Shown: positions 14,540-63,742 of the stretch, one piece after another | Layout: every line of letters begins with the position of its first letter | Position numbering within the stretch: the first letter of the stretch is position 1 | From: Loxodes magnus | Taxonomy: Eukaryota > Ciliophora > Karyorelictea > Loxodida > Loxodidae | Assembly (NCBI GenBank): GCA_946699065.1 | Contig: CAMPDV010000890.1 | Location: 62,001 to 126,000, forward strand | Direction: 5' to 3' | DNA length: 64,000 nucleotides | Position numbers and translations under genes: made by a program | The notes under the pieces: generated by a model | What the model saw: the letters and a program-made list of their open reading frames with translations, nothing else | The model's database searches: none | Told to the model about the DNA's origin: nothing

Positions 14540-15830
14540 TTTTTAATATTTATTAAATATGTTAAAAAAACTAAATTTGAACACTCTGTTAAGATATAAT
14601 ATGCATGTAGTTATATATCTATATATTTTTATTTTATAACTTACTTATTAGCTAGTTTATATGTTTTTTATCAGTAGCAAGAAATTTTGATTTCATACAA
14701 AAAACGATATGTTTTATATTTTATTTTATGATACATAAGAAATAAAAGAATTTTCAATAAAGTCTAATAAGTATTAGCAGGATGTAGCCAACGATTTTTA
14801 TCGTATATTGATGGAAAAAATTAATAAGACAATTAGTGAGCTTTATCAAAGAGCTATGATTTTAATAACACTATGAAATTTTAAAATCTTAACATTTAAT
14901 TTTAAGAAAGGAGTTATATTAAACCTGTCTTTATAGCAAATTTAAGGAAAAATTTCATAAACTGACTAAAAATTAGGGTAAATTTAAAATTCTAGAAACT
15001 TTAAGCCAGAACAAATCTTTGAAAAATTAAATTAAATAGAAAATAAACCTCCAACATAAGAGTTTAAAATATGATAGCGATATAATATTAACAAAAGTGG
15101 TCAGTTTTTATTCTTGATCTATTGATATTGGCAGATAAAAAATGCATTCATTTATCAATCATAATTGTATATTATAAATTAGACGTCTTAATTTTTTTTC
15201 TTCAACATTTAGCATTAAATTATATTTCAAACACTTTAAATTTAAATTTTTTTTTCTAAATGTTCACCTCCATCAATGTAAGTTATTTCATTAACTTGAT
15301 ATGAGGAAAGTAAAGGATCGTACCTATCCATGTAATATGATCTCTTGCTGCTTATGAGGACTATTTTCAGTGCTTTTGGCTTAATGAGTTTGTTTCAGCT
15401 GCTTTCTCAGAATTGAAATTTATTAAGTCTAAGATTTTAAGTCTGAGGTCAAAAGTTTGAACTGTTTTAACTAAAATAAGTTTTTTGGAAAAATAGAAAC
15501 TAAATAATAGAATACTTTTTTGAAAAAAGAAGAAATATAAAATAGGCTACATTTTTTGGTTAATGCGTTAATCGTGAAAAAGCAGATTTATTTTAGAAGA
15601 AATATTATTATAAAAAACTCATTCTTTTAAAAACTTAAATAAAAAAAAAAAAATTAAGATTTCACTTAAAAAAAATCCAAATTTGATTTTTTTTGAACGT
15701 ATTTAAATTTTGTAATTTTTTTAAAGAGAAAAATTGCGATTAACATAAAAAGGTGAAAGATTAATAAAATAAAATGTTTCTAAATTTTATTAGAGGATCA
15801 ATCAGAATAAAAAAATCTTTAGAATCATGG
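14540..15830. other. AT-rich DNA without a recognisable gene
   Basis: Mostly A/T. A patch at about 15280-15460 is a little richer but gives no convincing protein or RNA. Nothing else was seen. Confidence 0.45.
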
Positions 15831-15837
15831 CTTGGAA

Positions 15838-15897
15838 GTATACCCGCCGAATTATACCCGCCTTTTTAAAAGATAGCTCTCTACCCCCGCTCGCTTG
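15838..15897. other. isolated GC-rich patch with a repeated 10-mer
   Basis: TATACCCGCC occurs twice, the second copy starting about 15 bp after the first, followed by a C-rich stretch (CTACCCCCGCTCGC), all inside DNA that is otherwise A/T. It lies about 950 bp past the stop codon of the RING gene. It could be a regulatory site, or the end of a small RNA or unseen gene; I cannot tell which. Confidence 0.3.
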
Positions 15898-16845
15898 TCT
15901 AAAAAAAATTACGTTAAAATTATAAATTTTCCTTTTTTTTTATGAATCTTGTTATTTTATTTTGTTTAAACAAAAAAAATTAGAATTTATTAAATTAAAG
16001 CTTTAAAAAAAATTTGAATTTATATATAGATATTCAAGTAAAAATTATTAAAACAAATACGATAATAACGTTAGGATTTTAAAACAAAAAAAATTAAAAA
16101 CATGCTCAAAAACTTTAAAAAATGCTTTTATCCAAATTTTCGAGTTAAAATTGTATTTAAAAAAAATTTTATAAAATATTCAACTATAAGCAAAATGATA
16201 AATATAAAACTCTTCAATACATTTAAAAATATATGTTTTGCTTAACTTAAAAATTGCATTTACTTCGTTTAAAATAAAATATAAAAAAATAATAATATAA
16301 ATAAATTTCATTAAACTAAAATTCGCAAATTATAATCTTATATTTCTACTTAAACTAAAATAACACTTATTTTTTATTTACTAAAGCTAAATCCTTAAAT
16401 AATAAATTTAAATTTTAAATTAAAATATTTACCTACTATTAATATGCTTAATACAACCTTTATTTCCAAAAAACTTACCTATTTCACATTAATCATTAAC
16501 ATAATTATCTTATAACTTTACTTTACTAACTTCTTTTTTATTCAACTTATTATTAAGATTAAATTTCCTACTCGATTATAATCAAAATACAATAAAAATA
16601 TATTCTAAGTATATACTTATAAATTATATAGATATAAAAAAAACTTATATGACTTATTGCATATAAAAAAAGAAATGCTTATTAAGTAACCTTATAAATA
16701 CATACATACTTGTCTATTTTATATAATTCAATATTAAAGTTTCCCCATTGAATTTTTTAAAAATAATAAAGATAAATATAATATTTGATTTTTAAATTTC
16801 TTAGCTAAATAGAGTTTTAAAAAGTTTTGAAGTTCTTTCTCTCAC

Positions 16846-19507
16846 TCAAATCATCACTACAATAAAAAAATGATTCTTACTTCCTAAATTATATTAATCT
16901 TCATTACCCCCTAATAATATTTTCAAATAGACATACATTCTGAATTACTAATAGCATAAATCTTACCATCTAAATAATATAAAACTAGTACGATCTGAAA
17001 ATAAAAAAAACCTAAAAAAACTTATTACATTCTTTTTTTAAACCTAAAAATTAATTTACTTTCTTTTTTTACACCTAAAAGATAACTTACCAACTTTTTT
17101 TTACACATAAAAATTAATTTACGAACTTTTTTTTACACCTAAAAATTAACTTACGAACTTTTTTTACACCTAAAAATTAACTTACCAACTTTTTTTTACA
17201 CCTATAAATTAACTTACTTTCTTTTTTTTACACCTAAAAATTTATTTACATCCTTTTTTTTACACCTAAAAATTAACTTACCAACTTTTTTTTACACCTA
17301 AAAGTTAACTTACTTTCTGTTTTTACACCTAAAAATTAACTTACCAACTTTTTTTTACACCTAAAAGTTAACTTACTTTCTGTTTTTACACCTAAAAATT
17401 AACTTACCATCTTTTTTTTTTTACATCTAAAAATTAACTTACAACCTTTATTTACACCTTTAAATTAACTTACCATCTTTTTTTACACCTAAAAATTAAC
17501 TTACTTTCTTTTTTTTATACCTAAAAGATAACTTACCAACTTTTTTTTACATCTAAAAATTAACTTACTTTCTTTTTTTACACCTAAAAATTAACTTACC
17601 ATCTTTTTTCCATACCTAAAAATTAACTTACCAACTTTTTTTACACCTAAAAATTAACTTACAACCTTTTTTTTACATCTAAAAATCAACTTACTTTCTT
17701 TTTTTTACATCTATAAATTAACTTACCATCTTCTTTTTACACCTAAAAATTAACTTACCAACTTTTTACACTTAAAAATTAACTTACCATCTTTTTTTTA
17801 CACCTAAAAATAAACTTACCAACTTTTTATTACACCTAAAAATTAACTTACCAACTTTTTTTTACACCTATAAATTAACTTACCATCTTTTTTTACACCT
17901 AAAAATTAACTTACCATCTTTTTTTCACCTAAAAATTAACTTACCATCTTTTTTTACACATAAAAATTAATTTACATCCTTTTTTTACACTTAAAAATTA
18001 ACTTACCATCTTTTTTTTACACCTAAAAATTAACTTACAACCTTATTTTACACCTAAAAATTAACTTACCATCTTTTTTTTACACCTAAAAATTAACTTA
18101 CTCCCTTTTTTTCACACCTAAAAATTAACTTACAACCTTTTTTTACACCTAAAAATTAACTTACCTAAATTAAATTAGAGTTTTTAAATTAATCTTACTC
18201 CCTTTAATCATAAATTTAGTAAAACCAATACTTACAATCTAATCGAAACAGTTTAGATTTATTTTACATCCTAAAAAAGTATATAAATGCTCATTTACTA
18301 TCTAAAAAGATTATCTTTTATTCTTACTCCCTGGAAGGATATAATTAAGGCTTACATCCTTTTAGAAAAAAAACGTAGTAAATCTTATACTTACCTTGTT
18401 CTTTATTTAGATAAAAAAACCGTTTACCATCTATATTATTTATAAACGGCGAACGTTAAATTTGAACTTACTGAATTCCATTTGCAAGTTCTCATCATTC
18501 AAAAAATTATAACTATCTACTGTTTAACTGTCATCCAAAACAACCTTATTCTTAACGATATTCAAACCGTTAGGTAATAACTAAGTTTTTAATTAAATCT
18601 ATTTTTTTATCTATTCGATGGTAGTCTCTTGTTTTACTTATAAAGATACCGTTTTACCATTTGGCGATACAATAGTTATCTAGATATCCTATGGATTTTT
18701 TTACTAAAGAATATTTTGAGGTTCTTGAGTTTGTTAAGGCTGATCTACTTGTGATATTTTTTACAGTTAGATCAACTGCGCTTGTAGAGAAGATAGCTAC
18801 TATTACTAAATTTATACTTAATCACTTAACTTTTATATTTCTTTCTTCAATTTGTTATTTTCCTATGTTACTTTAGTAAGATTAAACTTGCAAGAGTCTA
18901 AGTCCTCGAAAACTTTAACGGATATTTGATTTTTCTACTAGATGATCTTTTATGCATCAGCTTCCAATTTTGAAACTTATTACTCACTCTGATGAGATAA
19001 TTATCCTTAATAAACAAACTACTACTAGTTGTTCCCTTATTTATCCATAAACTACTTTTAAATTTTGAAAATCCTTAACTATCCTTGGATTTATTTATCC
19101 TGCTAGATTAACTATCTTTGTAGGTTGATATTTTCCTTTAACAAATAAGTGTTTACGTGCTTAATCAACTACTATATGAATTTACTTTAGACATTAGACA
19201 ATAATGCCTACGCTTATCGTACTCTTAATGATTGATTCTCTAACATCGTTCGACTTTCTACGAGGTTCTTTTGTTCAAGACGCTTGAGTAACTAAGCGTC
19301 TTATTGTAAATTTACTAGATGAACCTTATGAACTTTTTAGCAATTTTAGTAAAAACAATCGATCGCCTAACTTTTCTAAAACTAATCAAAAGCACAAATT
19401 GCACAAATGCTATGCTTACATGGTAGCAACATTGGGATTTTCATCTACCCATCAAAATCTCCTTGACACTAATAACATTTAGCAGTCTAGGACATTTCAG
19501 ATTACAT
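16846..19507 (-). CDS. RING finger / coiled-coil / ubiquitin-like protein with about 49 micro-exons
   Basis: Exon 1 (19507-18472) is 345 codons plus 1 nt with no TGA; TAA/TAG are Gln. The RING has ligands C11, C14, C30, H32, C35, C38, C51 and C56 (the last pair spaced wider than usual). Residues about 60-262 form a Gln-rich coiled coil. Residues about 274-345 form a ubiquitin-like fold (SPNGKTVSLQVKQETTIEQI; DDSQTVDSYNFLNDENLQ), so an E3-ligase-like role is likely. After exon 1 come 49 tiny exons, 48 of 3 nt and one of 6 nt (18400-18395), separated by GT-AG introns of about 22-41 nt. The last exon starts at 16856. Every intron is phase 1. The spliced tail is 53 codons (starting NEQGWNRYWS, ending YHEWGMMI), then TGA at 16848-16846, giving 398 aa in total. 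The start ATG precedes the RING by 10 codons. One junction (18165/18164) has a zero-length exon or a double-length 62-nt intron. Splicing is inferred, not observed. Confidence 0.8.
17005..18164 (-). repeat. 31-bp minisatellite whose unit is one intron plus one codon-sized exon
   Basis: There are 36 tandem units, mean spacing about 31.6 bp. In gene sense each unit is GTAAGTTAATTTTTAG, then GTGT, an A run and G, then a triplet. The A-run length and scattered bases vary, giving introns of about 26-33 nt, yet the triplet between 'AG' and 'GTAA' is 3 nt in all 36 units. Triplets in gene sense: ATG x10, TTG x9, AAA x7, GTT x4, TTC x2, GAT x2, GGA x1, AAT x1. Flanking introns at 18201-18471 and 16857-17028 are unrelated in sequence but keep the same 3-nt grid. 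Confidence 0.9.
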
Positions 19508-19784
19508 TATTAATTTTAAAAAAACTTTTCCTTATAAACAAAATACACGTATGTATACGTTAAATAATAATAATAATAAAATAAAAAATATATAATAAAA
19601 AAGTAATTTATTATAATTAAATTATTTTAATTGGAATTATTTTAAATTAATTAATATATATATTTTAATTTAATAAAATGAAAAAAAAATTAATGTGATT
19701 TTATCTGCAAACTATATAAAGAATTAATAAAGTATAAACCTTTTATATAAAAATAATTAATTAATTTTAAACTTAAAGAGTTTT
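19508..19784. promoter_or_regulatory. divergent intergenic region between the RING gene and a structured RNA gene
   Basis: About 280 bp of A/T DNA separates two outward-reading units. On the plus strand a TATA-like box (TTTATATAAAAA, about 19742-19753) lies some 30-40 bp before the GC-rich RNA region, a plausible distance for a TATA-dependent Pol III promoter. An ATA/AAT-rich run at about 19565-19580 lies upstream of the RING gene start. No other element is recognised. Confidence 0.3.
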
Positions 19785-20061
19785 GGACTGTAACTTCTTG
19801 CAGTTTAACGACCCCAACACTCCCTTCATGGGATAACGGGGATATCCTGTTGCTTTCGAAAAGCAGCTGCCAGGGAGCTCCGTCGCTATGTGCAGCTAGG
19901 CTTCAAGCCCCTACCAGGAGTGGATAATCAAAAGGAAGGTGTTCCTTGCAAAGATTAACTTTGACCAAGGACTTTCTCAGCGACAGGAAAGGAACTTGTT
20001 CCTAGCCATAAAACCAGAAAGTATGATTCAGAAGGTCAATCTCAGCTCCCACCATCTTTTT
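19785..20061 (+). ncRNA. structured non-coding RNA, probably Pol III transcribed, class unknown
   Basis: An island of near-balanced base composition about 275 bp long in A/T surroundings. On the plus strand it ends in T5 (20057-20061) and has a TATA-like box upstream. It folds readily. Local hairpins include TGCTTT/AAAGCA (about 19850), AAGGAA/TTCCTT with a GGTG loop (about 19932), CAAAG/CTTTG and AGGAA/TTCCT. Longer pairings include TTTGACC with GGTCAAT and ACTTTCT with AGAAAGT (nested), and GGGAGCT with AGCTCCC near the 3' end. Size and promoter style would suit SRP RNA, RNase P/MRP RNA or a similar RNA, and TGTAAC near the 5' end recalls SRP Alu domains, but I could not match a diagnostic core. 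Coding text in any frame is poor. Confidence 0.5.
20057..20061 (+). terminator. T5 Pol III-type terminator of the structured RNA
   Basis: CATCTTTTTAATT immediately follows the GC-rich structured region on the plus strand; no equivalent T run closes the region on the minus strand. Confidence 0.4.
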
Positions 20062-21250
20062 AATTATTTTATATAAAAATATGAATATTTAAAAATAATT
20101 AATAAAAATATATAAATATCTCATAAAAATATATTTAAAAAAATTTTTAAAATTCATAATAAAAAATTTTAAAAAAATACATTTAATTAAAAATGAAAAA
20201 AATGATTTTTTTAAATATATAAATAATTCTACTTCTAAAATATATATTAAAAAGATTACAAAAAAAATTAAAAATAATCAATATTAAAGATATAAAAAAT
20301 ATAATCAAATTCTTTAAATAAACCAAATTACTTAACTAAAAAATTAATAAAAAATATAATCTAACTAAAAAAATAAAATTCGTTTATAAGCATAATACAA
20401 TAGGATAAAAAACCTATTTTTTTTTAATTTTTACCCAAAACTCATAAATTAAAAAAAAAATTTGAATTAAAAATAAATTTAAAAATATCTCGAAAAAAGA
20501 AAAATAAACAACATATTAGAATAAAATAAAATCTAATATTAAAGATATTTGTTAGAATTAAATAATAATTATCTGAATCTAGCAATAGACAAATTTTATA
20601 CTTTAATTTACCCTTTGGCAAAATATTCGTAGAAAGTTGTAAATCGCTTTAAATACATTTTATGACTAAAAATTAAGAAAAATAAGTATTATCATGAATT
20701 TTTCTACTCAAACAAATTCCGAATTCTTTTTATAACTTCTCATATTAAAATATCATAATAAAATTTTTAGAATATAAAATATGTAGATTTTTAAATTTAT
20801 TCTTAAAAATATTTTAATTCTTCCTTTTTTAAATCTGAATTAACAAATGAACTCTCAAGCTTTTAAAAACTAAATTTTATACAGTAAAAATGAGAAAACA
20901 ATATTTTGCTTTTTTTTAAGATGTTCAAAAATTAAAAAATATTAAAAATAATCTTATTTAACCAAAGAATTTTTAAGCTTCTATTAAATTTTAAAATCTA
21001 AAAACTTAATGGTAAGATAAAATATACCTATAAACCGTCATTATAGTAAATTTAAGGGATAATTTTATAGACATAAAATATCGTAAGAAAAAAATTAAAA
21101 AATTAGAAACTTTAAGAAAGAAACAATCCTTAATACCGAACAATTTACAGGAATTAGAACTAAAACTATACAAATTATATTCATTAACAAAGAAAAATCA
21201 TTTACTATCTATATGAAAAATATTTGTTCACATAAAAACTTAATAAGCTT
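20062..21250. other. AT-rich DNA without a recognisable gene
   Basis: Simple A/T sequence with long A runs. No gene, RNA or ordered repeat was recognised. Confidence 0.5.
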
Positions 21251-26036: not shown

Positions 26037-26157
26037 TGTTTAAGGTATGTTTAAAGCATGTTTAAGATATTTAAAGAGTATATTTAAGGTATGCTTAAAT
26101 TATGTTTAAGATATGTTTAAGATATGTTTAAGATATGTTTAAGGTATGTTTAAGAGT
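26037..26157. repeat. 11-bp tandem repeat (GTTTAAGATAT)
   Basis: About eleven units of GTTTAAGATAT and close variants (GTTTAAGGTAT, GTTTAAAGCAT). The last five or six are nearly identical and the first ones more diverged. The 11-bp period is close to one helical turn of DNA. Confidence 0.85.
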
Positions 26158-27499: not shown

Positions 27500-30400
27500 T
27501 TTTATTTCTTATTTTCTTATAAATTCCTATTCAATTTAATTACATTTCTTCTAAATTTCTTATGCACTTTTCTCTTCCATCACTGTATTCTTCACATTCT
27601 ATTATATATCTTTCATCTACTTTTGATTTATTGCACATCGGGCATTCGCTTTTTTCCACCAAATGTCTTTCTTTCAAGCAATCTTGACTTCCATTGTATC
27701 TTGCTCTTAGTCTAAAAATATAGCATATTTCATCTTTTCTGTATTTGTTATATCTTAGATAATTTGCTGGTTCTTTAATATATTTATCAAACCAATACAC
27801 TCTATATTATCATGTCGTTACCATTTAATCCATTCTCCATCTGTCTTCCATATTTGTACGATATTCTCATATTTTATTACTAATTTTTTCTTTCCCTGTT
27901 TTATTATTGTTTCCGTCATCTATAAACAGCTCTACATCTTTGATTTATATATCTTCTTTTATTAACGTACAATATTATTCAAATATAAAATTCTCTTCTC
28001 TATTTATCTCAAACATTATCCCATCCAATGTTTTCCCTTGATTACCTATTAGTTTACTTCTTAATCTTAATGTTTTTTATCATAAATAATGTTTAAACTT
28101 CATAAATTGCAATTCGTGTTCCAAAATCTCATTTTCCACACAAAATGGGGCATCCATTATTGCTCTCAGTGATCTTCTTTATAGAAATTCTAACTATTCC
28201 ATTGTTTGTTTACCAATAAACTATTCACAATATGGAACCATTTCAGTACCATAACTGAAAACTGAATTCACAAACGCTTTTATTATCATTCCTGCATTAA
28301 ACGGAGTCAATCCCTTATTTATTGCTATTTTTCCTATTGCCCATGCCTGTATCTTTTACGCTATCTCAAGTCTATTATCCATATGTTTAAGATAACTAAT
28401 ATTCTCTTCTATTATATGTCCAAGATATTAAAATTCTTTTACCCTTTATATTTATAATTAACCTATTTGAATTGTATTGCTAATATTCATTAGTTCCTTA
28501 TTTTCCTCCGTTTTTCACACCATTCATTTCGTCTTATCTGCTATTTTCAAATTATATTTTCCTGCTCATTTCACTAGTGCATATATAACATCTTCCTTCT
28601 TTTCCATTTCACTTACCAATGCTATATCATCCGCATATGAAAACATCCTGCAAATACTTTTTGTGTCTACCCTTTTTGATTCCTATATTATATATGATGC
28701 CTAATTTTCTCTTTTCTAACTTATGTAATAATTTTCTCATTATTATATTAAATAGTTATGGTGAGGTTGTGCTACCTTATTTTACTCCTTTGTTTGTTGA
28801 AAATGCTTCTGCAATTGTATCATTAATTTTTAAATGAATTTCTTCTACGCTATAGAAGTTTGCTAAAAGTTTAATTAATTATTCTGGTACCTGTAATTCA
28901 TTTAATATTTCTCATATATCACTCCTCTATACTGAATCATAGGTTTTTTGAATGTCTACAAATAATACAAATGCAATTTTATTGTTTTTATTATCCATTC
29001 CTAGACTGTTCTTAGATTAAATATTTGTTATGCACAAGATTTCTCTTTTCTAAACCTATATTAGTATTCGCTTTCTTGGTTATGAAGGTATGATTAGATT
29101 TTTTATAAAATCCATCTATCTATAGTTTTCAAGGCGTGATTTAAGAGAGAAATCGGTCTTTAATTTAAGGGTTCTAATTATCCTCCTTTTTTATATATAA
29201 AGTCTATATATTGTTATTTCATTTCCTGCGTTATTGTACCTTCTTCTAAGATTTTAGCTATCATCTTGCAGGTTATTTCTATTAATTTTTAGCCTCCTGC
29301 TATAATTGTGCCGGTTTGGATAGTATCCGGCCCGGCCGCTTTTCACTTGGCATTTTGTTAGAGGCTTTCCCATATTTCGTACTCATTAATTTCTATTTTG
29401 TTTTTATTTTTATATGCTTCCGGCAATGTGTTATCTCCTTCTTCATATAATTTTCGTCACACTTCTTTGAATCTTTATATATCTTCTTTTAATAGCGGTA
29501 TTCACTAGTTTTTTTTCTTTTGATTTAATAAATTTTTTATCTTTTTTCACATTTCTGTTAAGTTTTCTTTATTCACATTATCCATAAAGATGTTAAATTA
29601 GTTCTTTTAATCCTTTTTCCTTGCATTAATATATTCCTTTATTACTCTTTAAAATTCCAAATAAACTTCATCTGTACTAATTTCTTCGAACCTTCTGCCA
29701 TTTTTAATCATTGCTTTCACTTTTTTGCTGGATTATCTAAAACATTTATGTCATAATTTTGTTGATTCTGTGTACTGGATCCTTTTCTTACCTTCTTTTA
29801 TCTCCCCACATATCTGTTTTACTCCACCTTAAATTTGATTTTTTCATCACTTATACATTTCTTCCCCATTCATATATTTCGTTTCCTCTACTTAAATACT
29901 TTCTTGCATAAATTCAGAGAATTTTAATTATATTTCTTTTCTTTTCAATAGTTCAAAATTTAGTTTCTTTTTATATTCTTGTTTATTTATATCTTCGCTA
30001 ATTCACTATTACATTATTCCTGGTCTGTGGTCTCCTATTACGTATGAATAATAAAAGTCGCTTTTAATAATATTTTCTTTCATTGATTCTTCTATTATAA
30101 AATAGTCTATTTTATACTCTTTATTTTGGTAGACATACGTACCTAGATTGGCTGGGTCTATGCATATCAGATTTTTTTACTGCATGTACTGCGTAAGTCT
30201 CCTACCCGCCGAGTTTGTTTCTCATGGAGGTCACTTCTGCATATGCGCATTTCAGTCCCCTACTATTATTATACCAAGTCCTTTTTCTTACGCTTTTAGT
30301 TTCATTTCATTTACTACATTATAAAACGGTTCATATTAATCAGTTTCATTTGCTACTGGAACATATACATTTATAACTGCTATCTTTTTTTAACTTCCAT

Positions 30401-34799: not shown

Positions 34800-37700
34800 C
34801 GCATTTTGCCGTACCTCATATTATATCAAATAGTTCCATTCCTTGTCTTTCTACTCCTATTGTTCTTAACTTTCTAATACATATTTATCTACTTTCTTGG
34901 AATCTGAGCATTTTTCTATGATATGCCTTTCGTTTTCTCTTGCATCATTACAGAAAGGGCATTTGTTTGTCGCAACTAGGTGTCTTTCTTTTAAACAATC
35001 CTGGCTCGCATTAAATCTCGTTCTTATTCTAAATATGTAACATATTTCTTCTTTTCTATTTTTATTGTATCTCAGGTAGTTGGGTGGTCTTACTACATAT
35101 TCATCAAATCATGTTTTTCTATACTGTAGAGTTGTTATCATTTACTCCATTCTTTCTCTATCTTCTACGTATACTCTATGTTCTCAAATTGCACGATTAA
35201 TGTTTTTCTTCCCTTTTTGATTATTATTACCATCATCTATAAATATATTTTTGTCTTCAATTTTTAATTCTAATTTTATTGTCGTGCAGTATTGTTCAAA
35301 AAAAAGTTCTCTTCTTTACTTAGGTCGAACATTAATCCATCTACTGTTTTTCCTTAGTTACCTATTAGTCTGCCTCTTAATCTCAGCGTTTTCTGCCATA
35401 GGTAATGTTTAAATTTCATAAACTGTAACTCGTATTCTAGTATCTCATTTTACACTTAGAAAGGGGCATCTATGATTGCTCGTAAAGATCTTTTCTATAT
35501 TATTTCTAATTGTTCCATCACTTATTTTCCTACAAATTATTCACAATATGGGATAACTTCTGTCCCATAGCTGAATACTGAGCTTACGAACGTTTTTATC
35601 ATTATACCTGCGTTATATGGTGTTAATCCCTTATTCATTGTTATTTTACCCAGTATTCATGTTTACATCTTTTATGCTGCTTCTAGTCTATTCTCCATGT
35701 GTTTTTCAAAGCTGATGGTCTCTTCTATTATATGTCCTAGATACTAAAAGGACGTTACTCTTTCGATTCTTAAATTTCCCACCTCAATAGTATTGCCTAT
35801 ATTTTCTCAGTTTCTATTTTCTGCTATTCATATCATTCATTTTGTTTTATCTACAATTTCCAGTTTGTATTTTTCCGCCCATGAGGTTAAATTTTTGATT
35901 ACTTTCTTTAATTATTCTCATTCACTTATTAAGGCTAGGTCATCTGTATGCAAAACATCCTGCATATATTTCTTGTGTTCATCCCTCTTAGTTTTTAAAG
36001 TCTATCGTAATTCCTAGCTTTTAATCTTCCAAGCTATGGAGAAGTCTTGCTATTATTAAGTTAAATAGTCTTGGCGACGTTATGCTTCCCTGTTTTAGTC
36101 CTTTATTTATCGCGGATGATTTTTCTATTTATTCATTGATTTTAAGTTTAATTTCTTCTTCGCAGTAGAAGTTTGCTAGGAGTTTAATTATCTATACCGG
36201 TACTTTTAGATCGTTTAGGATTTATCATATATCTTTTCTTTGCACCGAGTCGTACGCTTTTTTAATATCAGCAAATATTACGAAAACATCTTTTTTGTTC
36301 CGTATTGATCATTCCTATACTGTTCTTAGGTTGAAAATTTATAGTGAGCATGATTTTCCTTTTTTAAAGCCATATTAATATTCGCTTTCATCATTATGCA
36401 GATATCCTTATAGTTGCTAGAAAATTCATGCATCTACTATTTTTAAAGCATGATTCAGTAAAGAGATTGGTCTATAATTCATCGGGTTCATCTATCCTCC
36501 TTTTTTGTATATTAATATTATGTATTATTATTTCATCTCTTAAGGTATTACTCCCTCTTAAATCATCTTAACTATCATTTTACATGTTACTTCTGTTAGT
36601 TTTTTCCCGCCTGCTAATATTGTACCTACTTGTATTTCATCAGGTCCTGTTGCTTTTCATTTCGCCAATTAGTTGATGATTTCTCAAATTTCATATTCGT
36701 TTACCACTATTTATCTCTTGTTTAAGAATTTAGTTGGTAACGTATTATCGCCATCTTCATACAGTTTCTATCATTCATCCCTGAAAGTATTAACATCTTC
36801 TTTTAATAAGGGTACTCATTAATTATTTTTTTTATTAAGTAAGTTTTTTAGTTTCTTCCACATATCTGTTAGACTTCCTTTATTTACATTGTCCATAAAT
36901 AGGTTTAGTTAGTTTCTTTTATCTTTTTTAGTTGATTAAATGTATTCTTATCTTACTCTTTTGTATTCTCTTTGATTCTCATTTTATTGATTTTCATTTA
37001 TTTGTTCTCTGTTCTTTACCCTTTATTTTAATTGTTTGCTGCATTTTCTAAAGATTTTATTACACTATTTTGTTGTTTCTGAATATTTATATATCTTAGA
37101 GTTTTATGTTTTAAATTTTCCACATACCATTTAAACTCCTTCTTATATCTTTTTCTTTCATCATTTATAAGTCTACGTGCCGTTTAGGTTATCAATTTCT
37201 TCTTCTTAGAGATTTTCTTGTATAAATCTTTCAAAGTTTTCTTATATCTCTTTTTTCTTTAATAGTAGGTAGTTTATTTTTGCTATCTTTTATGGCTTTC
37301 TTACTTCTTTACCCATCTTTACCTATATAATACCAGGCCTATGGTCACCTATTACGTATGAGTAATAAAAATCACTCTTTAACACCTTTTCTCTCATACT
37401 CTCTTCGATTAAAAAGTAATCTATTTTATACTTATTGTTTTAGTGAATAAAGGTACCTATTTCAGTTGGGTCTAGGCATATTAAATTATTCTGTTCCATA
37501 AACTGTGTCATTCTCTTTCCTGCTGAGTTTGTTTTCTTTGGCAGTCATTTTTCTATGTGCGCATTTCAGTCTCCTATTATCATTATATTAAGTCCTTTTT
37601 CTATTGCTTATAGTTTAAATTCATTCACTAAATTATAGAAATGCTCATAATGTTCGTTGTCATTTGCAACAGGAGCGTAGACATTTATTACTGCTAATTA

Positions 37701-38000
37701 TTTCATTATTTCTATTGCCATTACTCTCGCTCCTCCAAAAAGCGTCATTTGGTTTACTTCATTCTATATCTCTCTGATCTCCTTGCATATGTCGTTTCTA
37801 ATATAGAATGCTACTCATTTTCCTTTTTTTGATCCCACATTTATTAAGTTTTTATATCCTGCTATATTACACATATCTTTTTAGTCTTCAATCTAAATTT
37901 CTTATATTGCCATTATGTGGATACTTTTTTGAGTCATGAATTTGGCTAGTGCCTCTTTTGCACTTCTTACTCCCCTAATATTTGCTGTCCATATTTTTAT
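34800..38000 (-). CDS. LINE B ORF2: AP-endonuclease / reverse transcriptase / zinc motif
   Basis: Endonuclease: IKIWTANIRGVRSAKEAL, MAIQEIQIED (catalytic Glu), IIGD-NAHIEK (TGA at Trp), VIGDHRPGI. RT: AK-KATGPDEIQ (TGA at Trp), MNYRPISLLNHALKIVDA, FADIKKAYDSVQRKD (motif A), KGLKQGSITSPRLF (motif B), HTDDLALISE (motif C, T for A), TSWAEKYKLEI. The zinc motif is CPFC then H and C near 34950. The same frame holds from 37983 to about 36240. A frame shift brackets the motif C region and the original frame returns by the zinc motif. The Trp in TSWAEKY is TGG here, but the equivalent Trp in LINE A is TGA. Confidence 0.8.
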
Positions 38001-38265
38001 GACTTATTCTTAATCTTTTTTTACACTCATTCCCTCTACTTCCTCTTCACCTTATTCTTCTTTTTATTCATCTTCCTTCTCCACCTTTTCTTCTTCCTAT
38101 CTATCATTCTATGCTTCCATATTATTTTCTTTATTAGTTCTTTCCCCTTTTTTGTCTTTTTCATCTTATTATCTACCTTTTCCTTCTTCTTATCTATTCT
38201 AATCTTCTTCTTTTTCCTTTTCCTATTAGTTGAAGTCGGATAATTGTTCATTTTTGTTTATCGGT

Positions 38266-39499
38266 TTCTTAGCATAGTACATTCTCATTGAAGTTTGCTT
38301 CAATTTACTTCTTTGAGATATTAAAAGTCAAAAAAATAAAGAATACTTACTTGGTGAGATTGATAGATTATAACCTGAGATTCAGCTTGGTAAAGAATAT
38401 TTCCTAAGTCACATGTTATTAAATAAAGTTATAATCACTAATGCACCTGTCCAAATTATTTCTTAACTTAATTATCTCACTCTCTTGAGTATAAATTTTA
38501 ACTTCTTTTATATACAATTTATTTTACTATCTCTCATTCCTAACTGATGGAAAATATAAAGAGTATTATATCCACCTTGATTCTTCTTGCTACTCTCTTT
38601 AGCTTTTTACTTTATGAGATTAAATTTTAATTAAAGTGGAGATATCATTTCTTGATATTCTTCTTATATTCCATCTAGAGAAAGATATGAAGCGACTTAT
38701 AAAATTTCTCTATTTTCTTTGTTTTTTCTTGATTTTTCAATTAGAAATTTCCTTCAGTCTTAGTCTTTTATAGAGGGATAATATTATACTCCTTTTTCCA
38801 TTCATTTGTGTTCTTCTTCAGTTTATTTAAATTACTTTTATTTATTCCTTATGGTAATCATCCTTAGTTCTATTATCTTCTTCTCTATGAAGCTCATAAA
38901 TTTTCCTAAAATACTTATTATTTAAAAATTTACCCTAAAGCTGTTGAAATCAAGTTAGCTTAAGAAGATTTTGGAATTCATAGTGTCATTAGTGAACTTT
39001 CACTTTAATCTGATATTTAGAACATCATTCTTTATTGAGACTATTAGTGATTTATGCTTTAAACTTCTTTAAGATAAGAGAAAGTTGTAGTTAACACAAA
39101 TTAAGGAGAAAAGCATGAAATTTATCTTCCTTTAGATTGAACTAGATATATGAAGGTTCTTTTACTTCACATCGCTTATATAATTTATTTAAAAATACAA
39201 TGGCTAATACACCAAAGGAGGAAGAAAAAAGTCCACTTGAAGAAGTTTTTTTCTAGCTTTATAATTACAAAAGAACGTAGTATTGATTTTTATAATGCAT
39301 ATGAAGTACTTATTTGAAAGTCTTTTTTGTTGAAATAAAAGAACAAGAATATCAAATAATTAGAATAAGCATATTATATAATAGCAGTTTTAATAATAAG
39401 CTTCATTTGTAGCACCTTAATAACTTTGAGGTTATTTTGATTACTCCATTTTTAGTTTTCTCGCTTTTGATAGAAAGAGTAGATGTAACAGACTTTCTA
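38266..39499. other. AT-rich DNA between LINE B and a Kelch relic
   Basis: Mostly A/T, with weak coding-like minus-strand text that may be the decayed 3' part of the Kelch gene. No motif was recognised. Confidence 0.3.
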
Positions 39500-58370: not shown

Positions 58371-58862
58371 TTGTTCGAAGGTGAACAACAAGGGACATCT
58401 TCATTTGAGGTTGGGGAAGTTAAGTACCCATAATCGACTTTATGTCTTCCTCTGCTTTGGCTTGGCCTCGAGACATCTGTTAATTTGACCTTCGGCACTG
58501 GTTTATTTCAGTTTGTAATTCTGGAAATAAAAGGAAATTATTTTTGCGAGCTTCATCAGAGGTGGGGAATTTAAGTACCCATAATTGACACATGTCGTCC
58601 TCTGCTTTGGTGATGCAATGAGACGCAACCCTGCCATATCCTTGAACCTCCAAAAAGTATTAAAGATTACGAGTATTCTGAAATTATATCAGTATTGAAC
58701 ATTTTTATCAGTACTGAATAATTATACCAGTATTGAACAAGGTTTATCAGTATCTGATAATTTTATCAGTAAGAAACATTCTTGTCAGTATGAAACATTT
58801 TTTTTAAAGAGCTGCGCCAACGAGAGTGCTACGCGCTCTATAATCAAATTTATTTATCTTTA
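58371..58862 (+). mobile_element. short composite element with direct repeats and a SINE/LINE-type tail
   Basis: It opens with a small perfect palindrome (TTGTTC / GAACAA, 58371-58388). Two direct copies of about 75 bp follow (about 58398-58472 and 58549-58623), sharing GGGGAA-TTAAGTACCCATAAT and GTCCTCTGCTTTGG-like blocks. Next is a run of diverged units of the type ATCAGTATTGAACAT (about 58690-58800). It ends in the shared hairpin tail (AAAGAGCTGCGCCAACGAG ... CGCGCTC) and TTTA repeats. Its body is unrelated to the other SINE, so a second non-autonomous family may use the same LINE tail. Confidence 0.6.
58398..58623. repeat. pair of ~75-bp direct repeats
   Basis: The two copies differ by substitutions and small indels and are separated by about 75 bp containing a GGAAATAAAAGGAAATT stretch. 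Confidence 0.7.
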
Positions 58863-63669: not shown

Positions 63670-63742
63670 TGGAGAACTTGGGTATCGATCCCAATGCCTC
63701 TCGCATGCTAAGCGAGCGCTCTACCATTTGAGCTAGATCCCC
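63670..63742 (-). tRNA. tRNA-Ala (AGC)
   Basis: A 73-nt cloverleaf without intron and without encoded CCA. The acceptor stem carries the G3:U70 wobble pair that marks alanine tRNAs, and a single U6:U67 mismatch. The D arm (TAGCTCAAATGGTAGAGC) doubles as the A box. The anticodon stem is CTCGC/GCGAG with loop TTAGCAT and anticodon AGC. The T arm is TTGGG/CCCAA with loop ATCGATA, the A54 form usual in eukaryotic alanine tRNAs, which also gives the B box. Discriminator A. A T5 run follows. It is transcribed away from the partial gene at 63824. Confidence 0.96.

Follow-up and report, generated by a model that had tools for sequence, protein, structure and literature searches.

The window analyzed here is a stretch of 64,000 nucleotides from the ciliate Loxodes magnus (contig CAMPDV010000890.1, positions 62,001-126,000), and the gene in question occupies its positions 16,846-19,507 on the minus strand. 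The gene consists of one long first exon, encoding a protein with RING-like and ubiquitin-like (UBL) parts, and of a tail in which short segments with GT-AG ends alternate with exons that are nearly all 3 nt long (Table 1). Parsing of positions 18471-16857 gave 50 GT-AG segments, with internal spacers of 3 nt in 48 cases and of 6 nt in one case, and the final segment abuts TGATGA directly. The segments measure 22-41 nt, with the sole exception of one of 62 nt (18198-18137). When the parser was permitted to use zero-length exons, the tail resolved into 51 introns and one spacer of 0 nt.

Exon 1 ends in phase 1, so that every 3-nt exon would complete one codon with two bases and open the following codon with its third base. 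The predicted spliced tail of the gene then comprises 53 amino acids, NEQGWNRYWSWNGYGYDDVVDVDESFDEIENGYEIEIGQIVLLEKYHEWGMMI*. The original prediction, made from the letters of the window, had described a long series of 3-nt-spaced GT-AG segments behind a 345-codon exon and read it as a tail of single-codon exons; the pattern itself was confirmed by the parse and by the shuffles and paralogs presented below, and its 159-nt spliced tail agrees with the 53 residues and the stop TGA in the frame of exon 1. The claimed spacer counts (48 of 3 nt, one of 6 nt) were also recovered, as was the size range of about 22-41 nt for all segments but one. The spacing is not otherwise invariant, there being one further spacer of 0 nt, and the 62-nt segment is better described as two introns. 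Genetic code 6 was applied throughout; table 27, in which TGA is Trp or stop depending on context, is probably correct for Loxodes, and under that table in-frame TGA codons would become Trp. A reading of the triplets as whole codons (MNKDGIDIGVG...) was discarded, because of the phase-1 end of exon 1 and because the arrays of paralogs contain many TGA triplets (91).

Table 1. Features of the gene with the one-codon-exon tail, in window coordinates.
Feature	Positions	Strand	Description
Exon 1	18472..19507	-	Open reading frame (ORF) of 1036 nt = 345 codons + 1 nt, open in code 6
Leading block, introns 1-8	18199..18471	-	25-41 nt each, mutually dissimilar
Leading-block exons	18199..18471	-	ATG, AACAAG, GAT, GGA, ATA, GAT, ATT, GGA
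Sole 6-nt spacer, AACAAG	18400-18395	-	From the GT-AG parse of the tail
62-nt segment	18137..18198	-	Two directly adjoining introns of 34 and 28 nt, zero-length exon between them (AG|GTAAG)
Central array	17032..18164	-	36 similar introns, consensus GTAAGTTAATTTTTAGGTGTAAAAAAAG, with variable triplets between them
Central-array triplet types	17032..18164	-	ATG, TTG, AAA, GTT, GAT, GGA, TTC, AAT
Trailing block	16857..17031	-	Exons AAT (precedes the block), ATC, ATG, AAT, GGG, GAA; dissimilar introns of 22-34 nt
Last exon	16846..16856	-	Starts TGATGA; closes the tail with the stop TGA (16848-16846), which is in frame with exon 1

The central array is a tandem repeat of 36 similar units, and its regular spacing alone is therefore weak evidence. 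Within it the first 19 nt of the introns differ pairwise by 8% and the triplets by 58%, and all 14 exact genomic occurrences of the 24-mer GTAAGTTAATTTTTAGGTGTAAAA fall in this array. As far as can be judged from sequence, the weight of the evidence is carried by the flanks of the array, by the paralogs and by the genome-wide counts of 3-nt versus 4-nt spacing. In ten order-1 shuffles of the 64-kb window the longest chain of 3-nt-spaced units was 3. The flanks (18480-18165 and 17060-16840, the latter taking in the last array unit) contain 6 and 7 consecutive units, respectively, compared with a best chain of 4, reached once each, in 2000 shuffles per flank. Chains of at least 4 units with spacers of 1-6 nt were confined, within the window, to the region of the gene tail.

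Exon 1 encodes a RING-like motif (ligands C11, C14, C30, H32, C35, C38, C51 and C56), a glutamine-rich predicted helix and a UBL domain at residues 277-342. The Pfam ubiquitin family (PF00240) matched this exon at 29.6 bits, above its cut-off of 25.4, and the RING scored 19.0 bits, below the Pfam cut-off of 25.2. The eight RING ligand columns are invariant in all 16 aligned exon-1 copies. Homolog searches gave no match at E <= 0.001 with exon 1 alone, and none at E <= 1 with the 16-sequence alignment. The AlphaFold model of exon 1 was poor (mean pLDDT 43.9), with values of 52-78 per ten-residue block in the UBL part. Between distant clades the dN/dS ratio of exon 1 was 0.25-0.30 at a dS of about 0.53-0.57, and between the window copy and closer paralogs it was 0.40-0.83. 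By its motif and domain matches, the protein appears to be a putative RING E3 ubiquitin-ligase-like protein.

The gene belongs to a large family, which the original prediction overlooked together with the genome-wide plan of the tails and the hypervariability of their codons. A search with exon 1, in which the best candidates were scored, gave at least 117 copies including that of the window; nearly all were full length, and 110 of the 117 were free of TGA. The pattern of the junction between exon 1 and intron 1 had 79 exact matches in the genome (control 0), 23 of them on five contigs outside the scored set (8 on C105, 5 on C507, 4 on C324, and 3 each on C442 and C720). Four junction matches on these additional contigs were read and all were family members, hereafter clade E. 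The family thus probably counts at least 140 genes. On the five contigs the matches form same-strand clusters of 3-8, about 20-115 kb apart, and the fully read exon-1 copies from three of them (L059-L061) are nearly identical. Paralogs resemble one another beyond the gene as well, over no less than 1.5 kb on its upstream side and 0.8-0.9 kb on its downstream side (about 15500-16845 and 19508-21000 in the window), and the gene may, on this similarity, sit in a larger duplicated unit.

Thirty-seven first-family loci were read, namely the window, 20 copies with exon 1 and 12 tails (together 32 of the 116 other scored copies), and the four clade-E loci. A common plan was found in all 36 loci other than the window: leading triplets near ATG AACAAG GAT GGG ATA ACT ATT GGA, a variable array, trailing triplets near TTT ATC GTG AAT GGG GAC, and then usually TGATGA. 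The leading block was recognisable, with substitutions, in 32 paralogs. A parser that favours 3-nt exons and requires GT/GC...AG ends found 1,772 introns in the 37 loci and 1,735 internal exons, of which 1,680 were of 3 nt, 36 of 6 nt, 17 of 0 nt, one of 9 nt and one of 4 nt. Donors were GT in 1,763 and GC in 9 introns, and acceptors were all AG; as these ends are imposed by the parser, the real test lies in the 3-nt chaining and the shuffles. GC donors (GCAAG) stand in place of GT at some units of L042 and L061. Counted independently of the parser, gaps between adjacent consensus introns were exactly 3 nt in 409 of 440, 76 of 96, 125 of 149 and 12 of 20 cases, and most of the remaining gaps were 33-38 nt, corresponding to one intervening unit that misses the consensus.

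If nearly every internal exon is a single codon, the triplets should be conserved with introns freer to change, the spliced frame should be open, and other spacings should be little tolerated. In the 33 tails first parsed, the frame of exon 1 contained 8 TGA in 1,602 codons, versus 82 in 1,635 and 124 in 1,603 in the other two frames, and the unspliced reading was open in none of the 33 loci. Setting aside L022, L032, L035 and L042 left no TGA in 1,363 codons, versus 71 and 89 in the other frames. When GC donors were accepted and clade E was included, 30 of the 37 tails were open (1,404 codons), with 79 and 90 TGA in the other frames. Shuffling the order of triplets over whole tails (2000 runs) gave a mean of 22.2 TGA and a minimum of 10, versus the 8 observed.

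Conservation of the flank triplets was assessed between clade A (14 loci) and clade D (10 loci). Identity was 100% for GAT and GGG, 97% for AAT, 93% for ATC and 45-86% for the rest, while homologous introns were 62-82% identical and non-homologous ones 60%. The third exon, GAT, was identical in every clade A-D pair compared. In clade E intron 3 is absent; read by eye, its flanking exons are contiguous as AGAAAGGAT and the anchor NQKGW is restored. The peptide anchors conserved in the family are N-x-[QK]-G-W ... Y-[RC]-[EQ]-W-G-L.

The tolerance of other spacings was judged with a motif in which two 3-nt exons follow one another between introns ending in TAG, built to skip the AAG-ending array introns of the first family. 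This motif had 30,068 matches in the genome, overlapping within arrays, and its reversed control 1,866; with 4-nt spacers there were 8 matches (control 1). Seven places were opened from among the first matches listed, and six of them (L063, L070 and L074-L077) represent a second RING-UBL family. Its RING is 42% identical to that of the first family over 55 residues, the match of L076 being in two pieces; zf-C3HC4 scored 25.7 bits, above its cut-off of 21, and ubiquitin 22.7 bits, below its cut-off. With a parser favouring 3 nt, the internal exons of exactly 3 nt in the best chain of these six loci numbered 49 of 49, 37 of 38, 72 of 73, 59 of 60, 21 of 21 and 46 of 48, and the introns were 16-42 nt long. 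L073 carries the trailing triplets of the first family, with 22 of 23 exons of 3 nt, and the stretch fetched for it held no exon 1. The proposal of one-codon exons is thus supported on all three counts: conservation of some flank triplets, an open frame in most tails and rarity of 4-nt spacing. We consider it probable, on the sequences compared, that a protein-coding gene ends in this block, its 3' part being spliced and nearly every internal exon being one codon.

Several observations weigh against this interpretation. Tandem duplication copies a 3-nt spacing along with the unit, so that the ratio of 3-nt to 4-nt matches overstates the independent evidence, but 4-nt variants, if tolerated, would be duplicated as well. 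Seven of the 37 tails contain in-frame TGA (L022, L032, L035 and the clade-E loci L059-L062). In L032 and L035 the TGA sits exactly where paralogs carry TGG in NEQGWNNYW, and may stand for Trp. In clade E one in-frame TGA arises from the parser pulling AGAAAG into intron 2; reading by eye restores the anchor NQKGWDDYW, yet a TGA at CAT|GAA remains. L042 is open solely with GC donors, L062 has a broken exon 1, L021 lacks its last donor, and 6 of 33 arrays extend past the end of the fetched sequence, where their trailing part was unseen. The first junction of second-family genes yields T|GA (L070, and L063 by eye), to be read as Trp under table 27 or as stop. An array-only check (33 loci, 1,166 triplets) gave 4 T|GA junctions, all in L022, against a within-array shuffle mean of 1.76. 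T|GA is accordingly not avoided in arrays beyond triplet composition, it is the conserved flank triplets that account for the whole-tail shuffle result, and that shuffle was not upheld as a sign of selection inside arrays. The openness of the arrays follows the scarcity of triplets starting with GA (8 versus 40.9 expected from independent columns), and since triplets starting with TA, AG and GG deviate as strongly, this scarcity is no proof of selection. Over the 33 loci, array triplets starting with AA, GG, CT and TC are in excess and those starting with TA, AG and GA are scarce.

One way to account for the arrays differently is that their introns end at an internal AG after 16-17 nt, giving exons of about 15 nt (12 constant and 3 variable) and leaving one-codon exons to the flanks. 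Such a length is typical of L. magnus introns (mode 17; PMC11441545), and the resulting exon-1 frame is free of TGA in 19 of 30 loci, so that this alternative would still be open in the central array of those loci; in the flanks, the support for one-codon exons is strong. We nevertheless consider it very unlikely, as it is not open in 11 of the 30 loci, with 18-49 TGA each in L037, L038, L039, L041 and L043; 405 of 905 array units, spread over 19 of the 30 loci, would shift the frame, the bases left over not being divisible by three; and the total over 29 loci is 219 TGA, versus none with one-codon exons. The array might also be a minisatellite in an untranslated tail or a large intron, its triplets noise and its 3-nt spacing inherited by tandem duplication. 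That the non-repetitive flank units hold an exact 3-nt spacing, that several flank triplets are conserved while introns diverge, and that only 8 four-nt-spaced matches exist in the genome all speak against it, as do the clade-E loci, where an intron is missing with the coding sequence kept and where arrays of all-different introns share the same spacing. These points make a minisatellite improbable to us, albeit the central units are near-identical tandem repeats, paralog similarity reaches beyond the gene in both directions as in a duplicated segment, T|GA is not avoided beyond composition, and in-frame TGA is present in clade E and in three loci besides. The original prediction had itself raised the possibility of DNA elimination, in which the segments would be internally eliminated sequences (IESs) present in the germline genome only. 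Their sizes overlap those of known short IESs, and the organism is a ciliate, TAA and TAG being read as sense in its chaperonin genes, with tiny introns and a LINE-like ORF as further signs; the best named ciliate match of one chaperonin is Blepharisma (67%). The segment ends are, however, GT/GC...AG, 22 of 29 chaperonin matches cover nearly the whole domain in one frame, and the assembly, with 705,730,643 bases, has about the size of the 706-Mbp L. magnus macronuclear assembly, which according to the available part of PMC11441545 is without canonical IESs. This suggests that the assembly is somatic DNA, and since it apparently is, elimination of the segments is hardly credible.

Two further proposals concern what the tails do. 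In combinatorial splicing the sites of different units would pair freely and 3-nt exons would be skipped, yielding many tails per locus, with diversity or a splicing load (a delay or sensor) as the function. The near-identical array donors and acceptors are in line with this, as is the preservation of the frame on skipping, given that almost every exon is a single codon and the phase is uniform; we hold it to be a possible but somewhat unlikely account. Rather unlikely, in our judgment, is that the genes belong to a mobile or selfish element, as its cargo or as parts in decay, with tails drifting free of host function. More than 100 dispersed copies, some of the matches in same-strand clusters, a nearby LINE-like ORF and the dN/dS of 0.4-0.8 for closer pairs would fit such an origin; the 110 of 117 exon-1 copies without TGA, the lower dN/dS between distant clades, the invariant RING ligand columns and the conserved tail anchors would not.

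Within the arrays, the introns and the one-codon exons between them differ in how much they vary. Pairwise comparison in the 33 loci that do not belong to clade E (the window among them) gave differences of 0-0.215 (median 0.077) for the leading 18 nt of array introns and of 0.49-0.74 (median 0.616), nearly random, for the array triplets. In clade A, 557 array introns show 124 mismatches over 19 positions, or 1.2% per site; a single column accounts for 92 of these, and the arrays hold 25 triplet types. The loci L029 and L031 have 1 difference in 1035 exon-1 bases, identical introns 1-8 and six array differences, all six of which can be read as events of whole units (codon plus intron); they have 52 matched units, in one of which the introns are of unequal length but otherwise alike. 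Two further pairs, with 8 (L025 and L032) and 17 (L021 and L022) differences in 1035 exon-1 bases, have arrays that are largely unrelated. Clade E presents the contrary case: between L059 and L060 the 32 unit triplets are all the same and 6 of the 32 introns are not, and no two introns within a locus are identical. The one-codon plan is therefore independent of identical introns, and the homogenised, fast-changing arrays look, in this comparison, like a step added to it.

From this architecture we infer splicing in vivo and translation of the tails. The spliceosome would remove about 50 tiny introns and join the triplets into a 53-residue C-terminal tail, placed behind the RING, coiled-coil and ubiquitin-like parts of the protein. 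The conserved end triplets would give fixed peptide anchors, and the middle array of intron plus one codon a hypervariable insert of variable length. The near-identical introns would provide the homology for an exchange of units; as all units have one phase and one exon length, gain, loss or exchange of whole units preserves the reading frame. Point mutation alone does not explain identical introns beside saturated triplets, and candidate processes would be gene conversion coupled with selection favouring triplet diversity, exchange from one locus to another, or a rebuilding process. Tentatively, and a little short of an even chance in our estimate, this would amount to codon-cassette diversification: in at least a hundred RING-UBL genes of this ciliate, and perhaps in many more, the units would act as always in-frame cassettes of a single amino acid, and recombination between identical introns would add, delete and shuffle codons between the anchors, yielding a fast-evolving recognition repertoire of ubiquitin-ligase-like proteins, with part of the masked tandem repeat being coding.

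The micro-exon genes (MEGs) of schistosomes have exons of 6-36 nt and ordinary introns. Like the Loxodes tails they combine consecutive short symmetric exons, skipping that keeps the frame, and protein variation; unlike in MEGs, the Loxodes exons are one codon, the introns are mostly 16-41 nt and often identical, and the triplets are hypervariable between paralogs. Introners are many near-identical introns in one genome, whereas the near-identical introns of Loxodes, known here from two related RING-UBL families, form tandem stacks within a single gene tail, one codon separating each from the next. Expanded, diversifying E3 ligase families such as the F-box and BTB-MATH families pair a conserved core with a variable, putatively recognising part; there the variation lies in domain repeats, in Loxodes in single-codon units. 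To our knowledge no gene has been described in which a protein segment is spelled out by 20 to more than 90 consecutive exons of a single codon each, and searches of the open-licence PubMed Central literature listed no such run. Isolated 3-nt microexons exist in Ncam (cited in PMC8042270), and two 3-nt exons in fungal lipS genes (PMC5639578); from the available parts of these sources, they share the one-codon length and number one or two per gene, versus runs of 20 to more than 90 in Loxodes. In Paramecium more than 95% of introns are 20-34 nt, with about 2 per gene and exons of about 400 nt; the length range and the consensus GTA...TAG are shared, and the few introns and long exons differ (PMC11334263). 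Typical L. magnus introns have a mean of 19.3 and a mode of 17 nt, 93% being at most 25 nt (PMC11441545), and those of the array genes are longer, mostly 24-36 nt.

For L. magnus as a whole, the available part of PMC11441545 reports table 27, abundant LINEs, no telomeres found and no canonical IESs. A genome search for the telomere repeat TTGGG[GT] found none, by a method that may skip simple repeats. The chaperonin (CCT) genes at L053-L058 comprise several diverged copies with a domain free of introns, the six loci containing no TGA and 14 TGG in all; the copies may point to genome duplication. Elsewhere in the window, a LINE-like RVT_1 fragment lies on the minus strand at 28737-29264 (25.2 bits, below the cut-off of 29.6), with ORFs near 35138-38288, and the two ORFs neighbouring it had no Pfam match at E 0.01. 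A tRNA-Ala (AGC) gene is located at 63670-63742, and other tandem repeats at 26037-26155 (11/44-nt period) and 58682-58802 (19/38-nt period).

Exons of 3 nt between introns of mostly 16-41 nt would test the limits of exon definition, splicing order and error tolerance, and the arrays would constitute a natural system of modular, frame-safe evolution by single residues. Of the L. magnus macronuclear assembly, 231 Mbp were annotated as tandem repeats with a length of 1 kb or more, and these were masked; in the main text of that study the word 'microexon' is absent and 'exons' occurs once (PMC11441545). The one-codon arrays could have been masked in this way, and some of the DNA that is masked as low-complexity tandem repeat may be coding.

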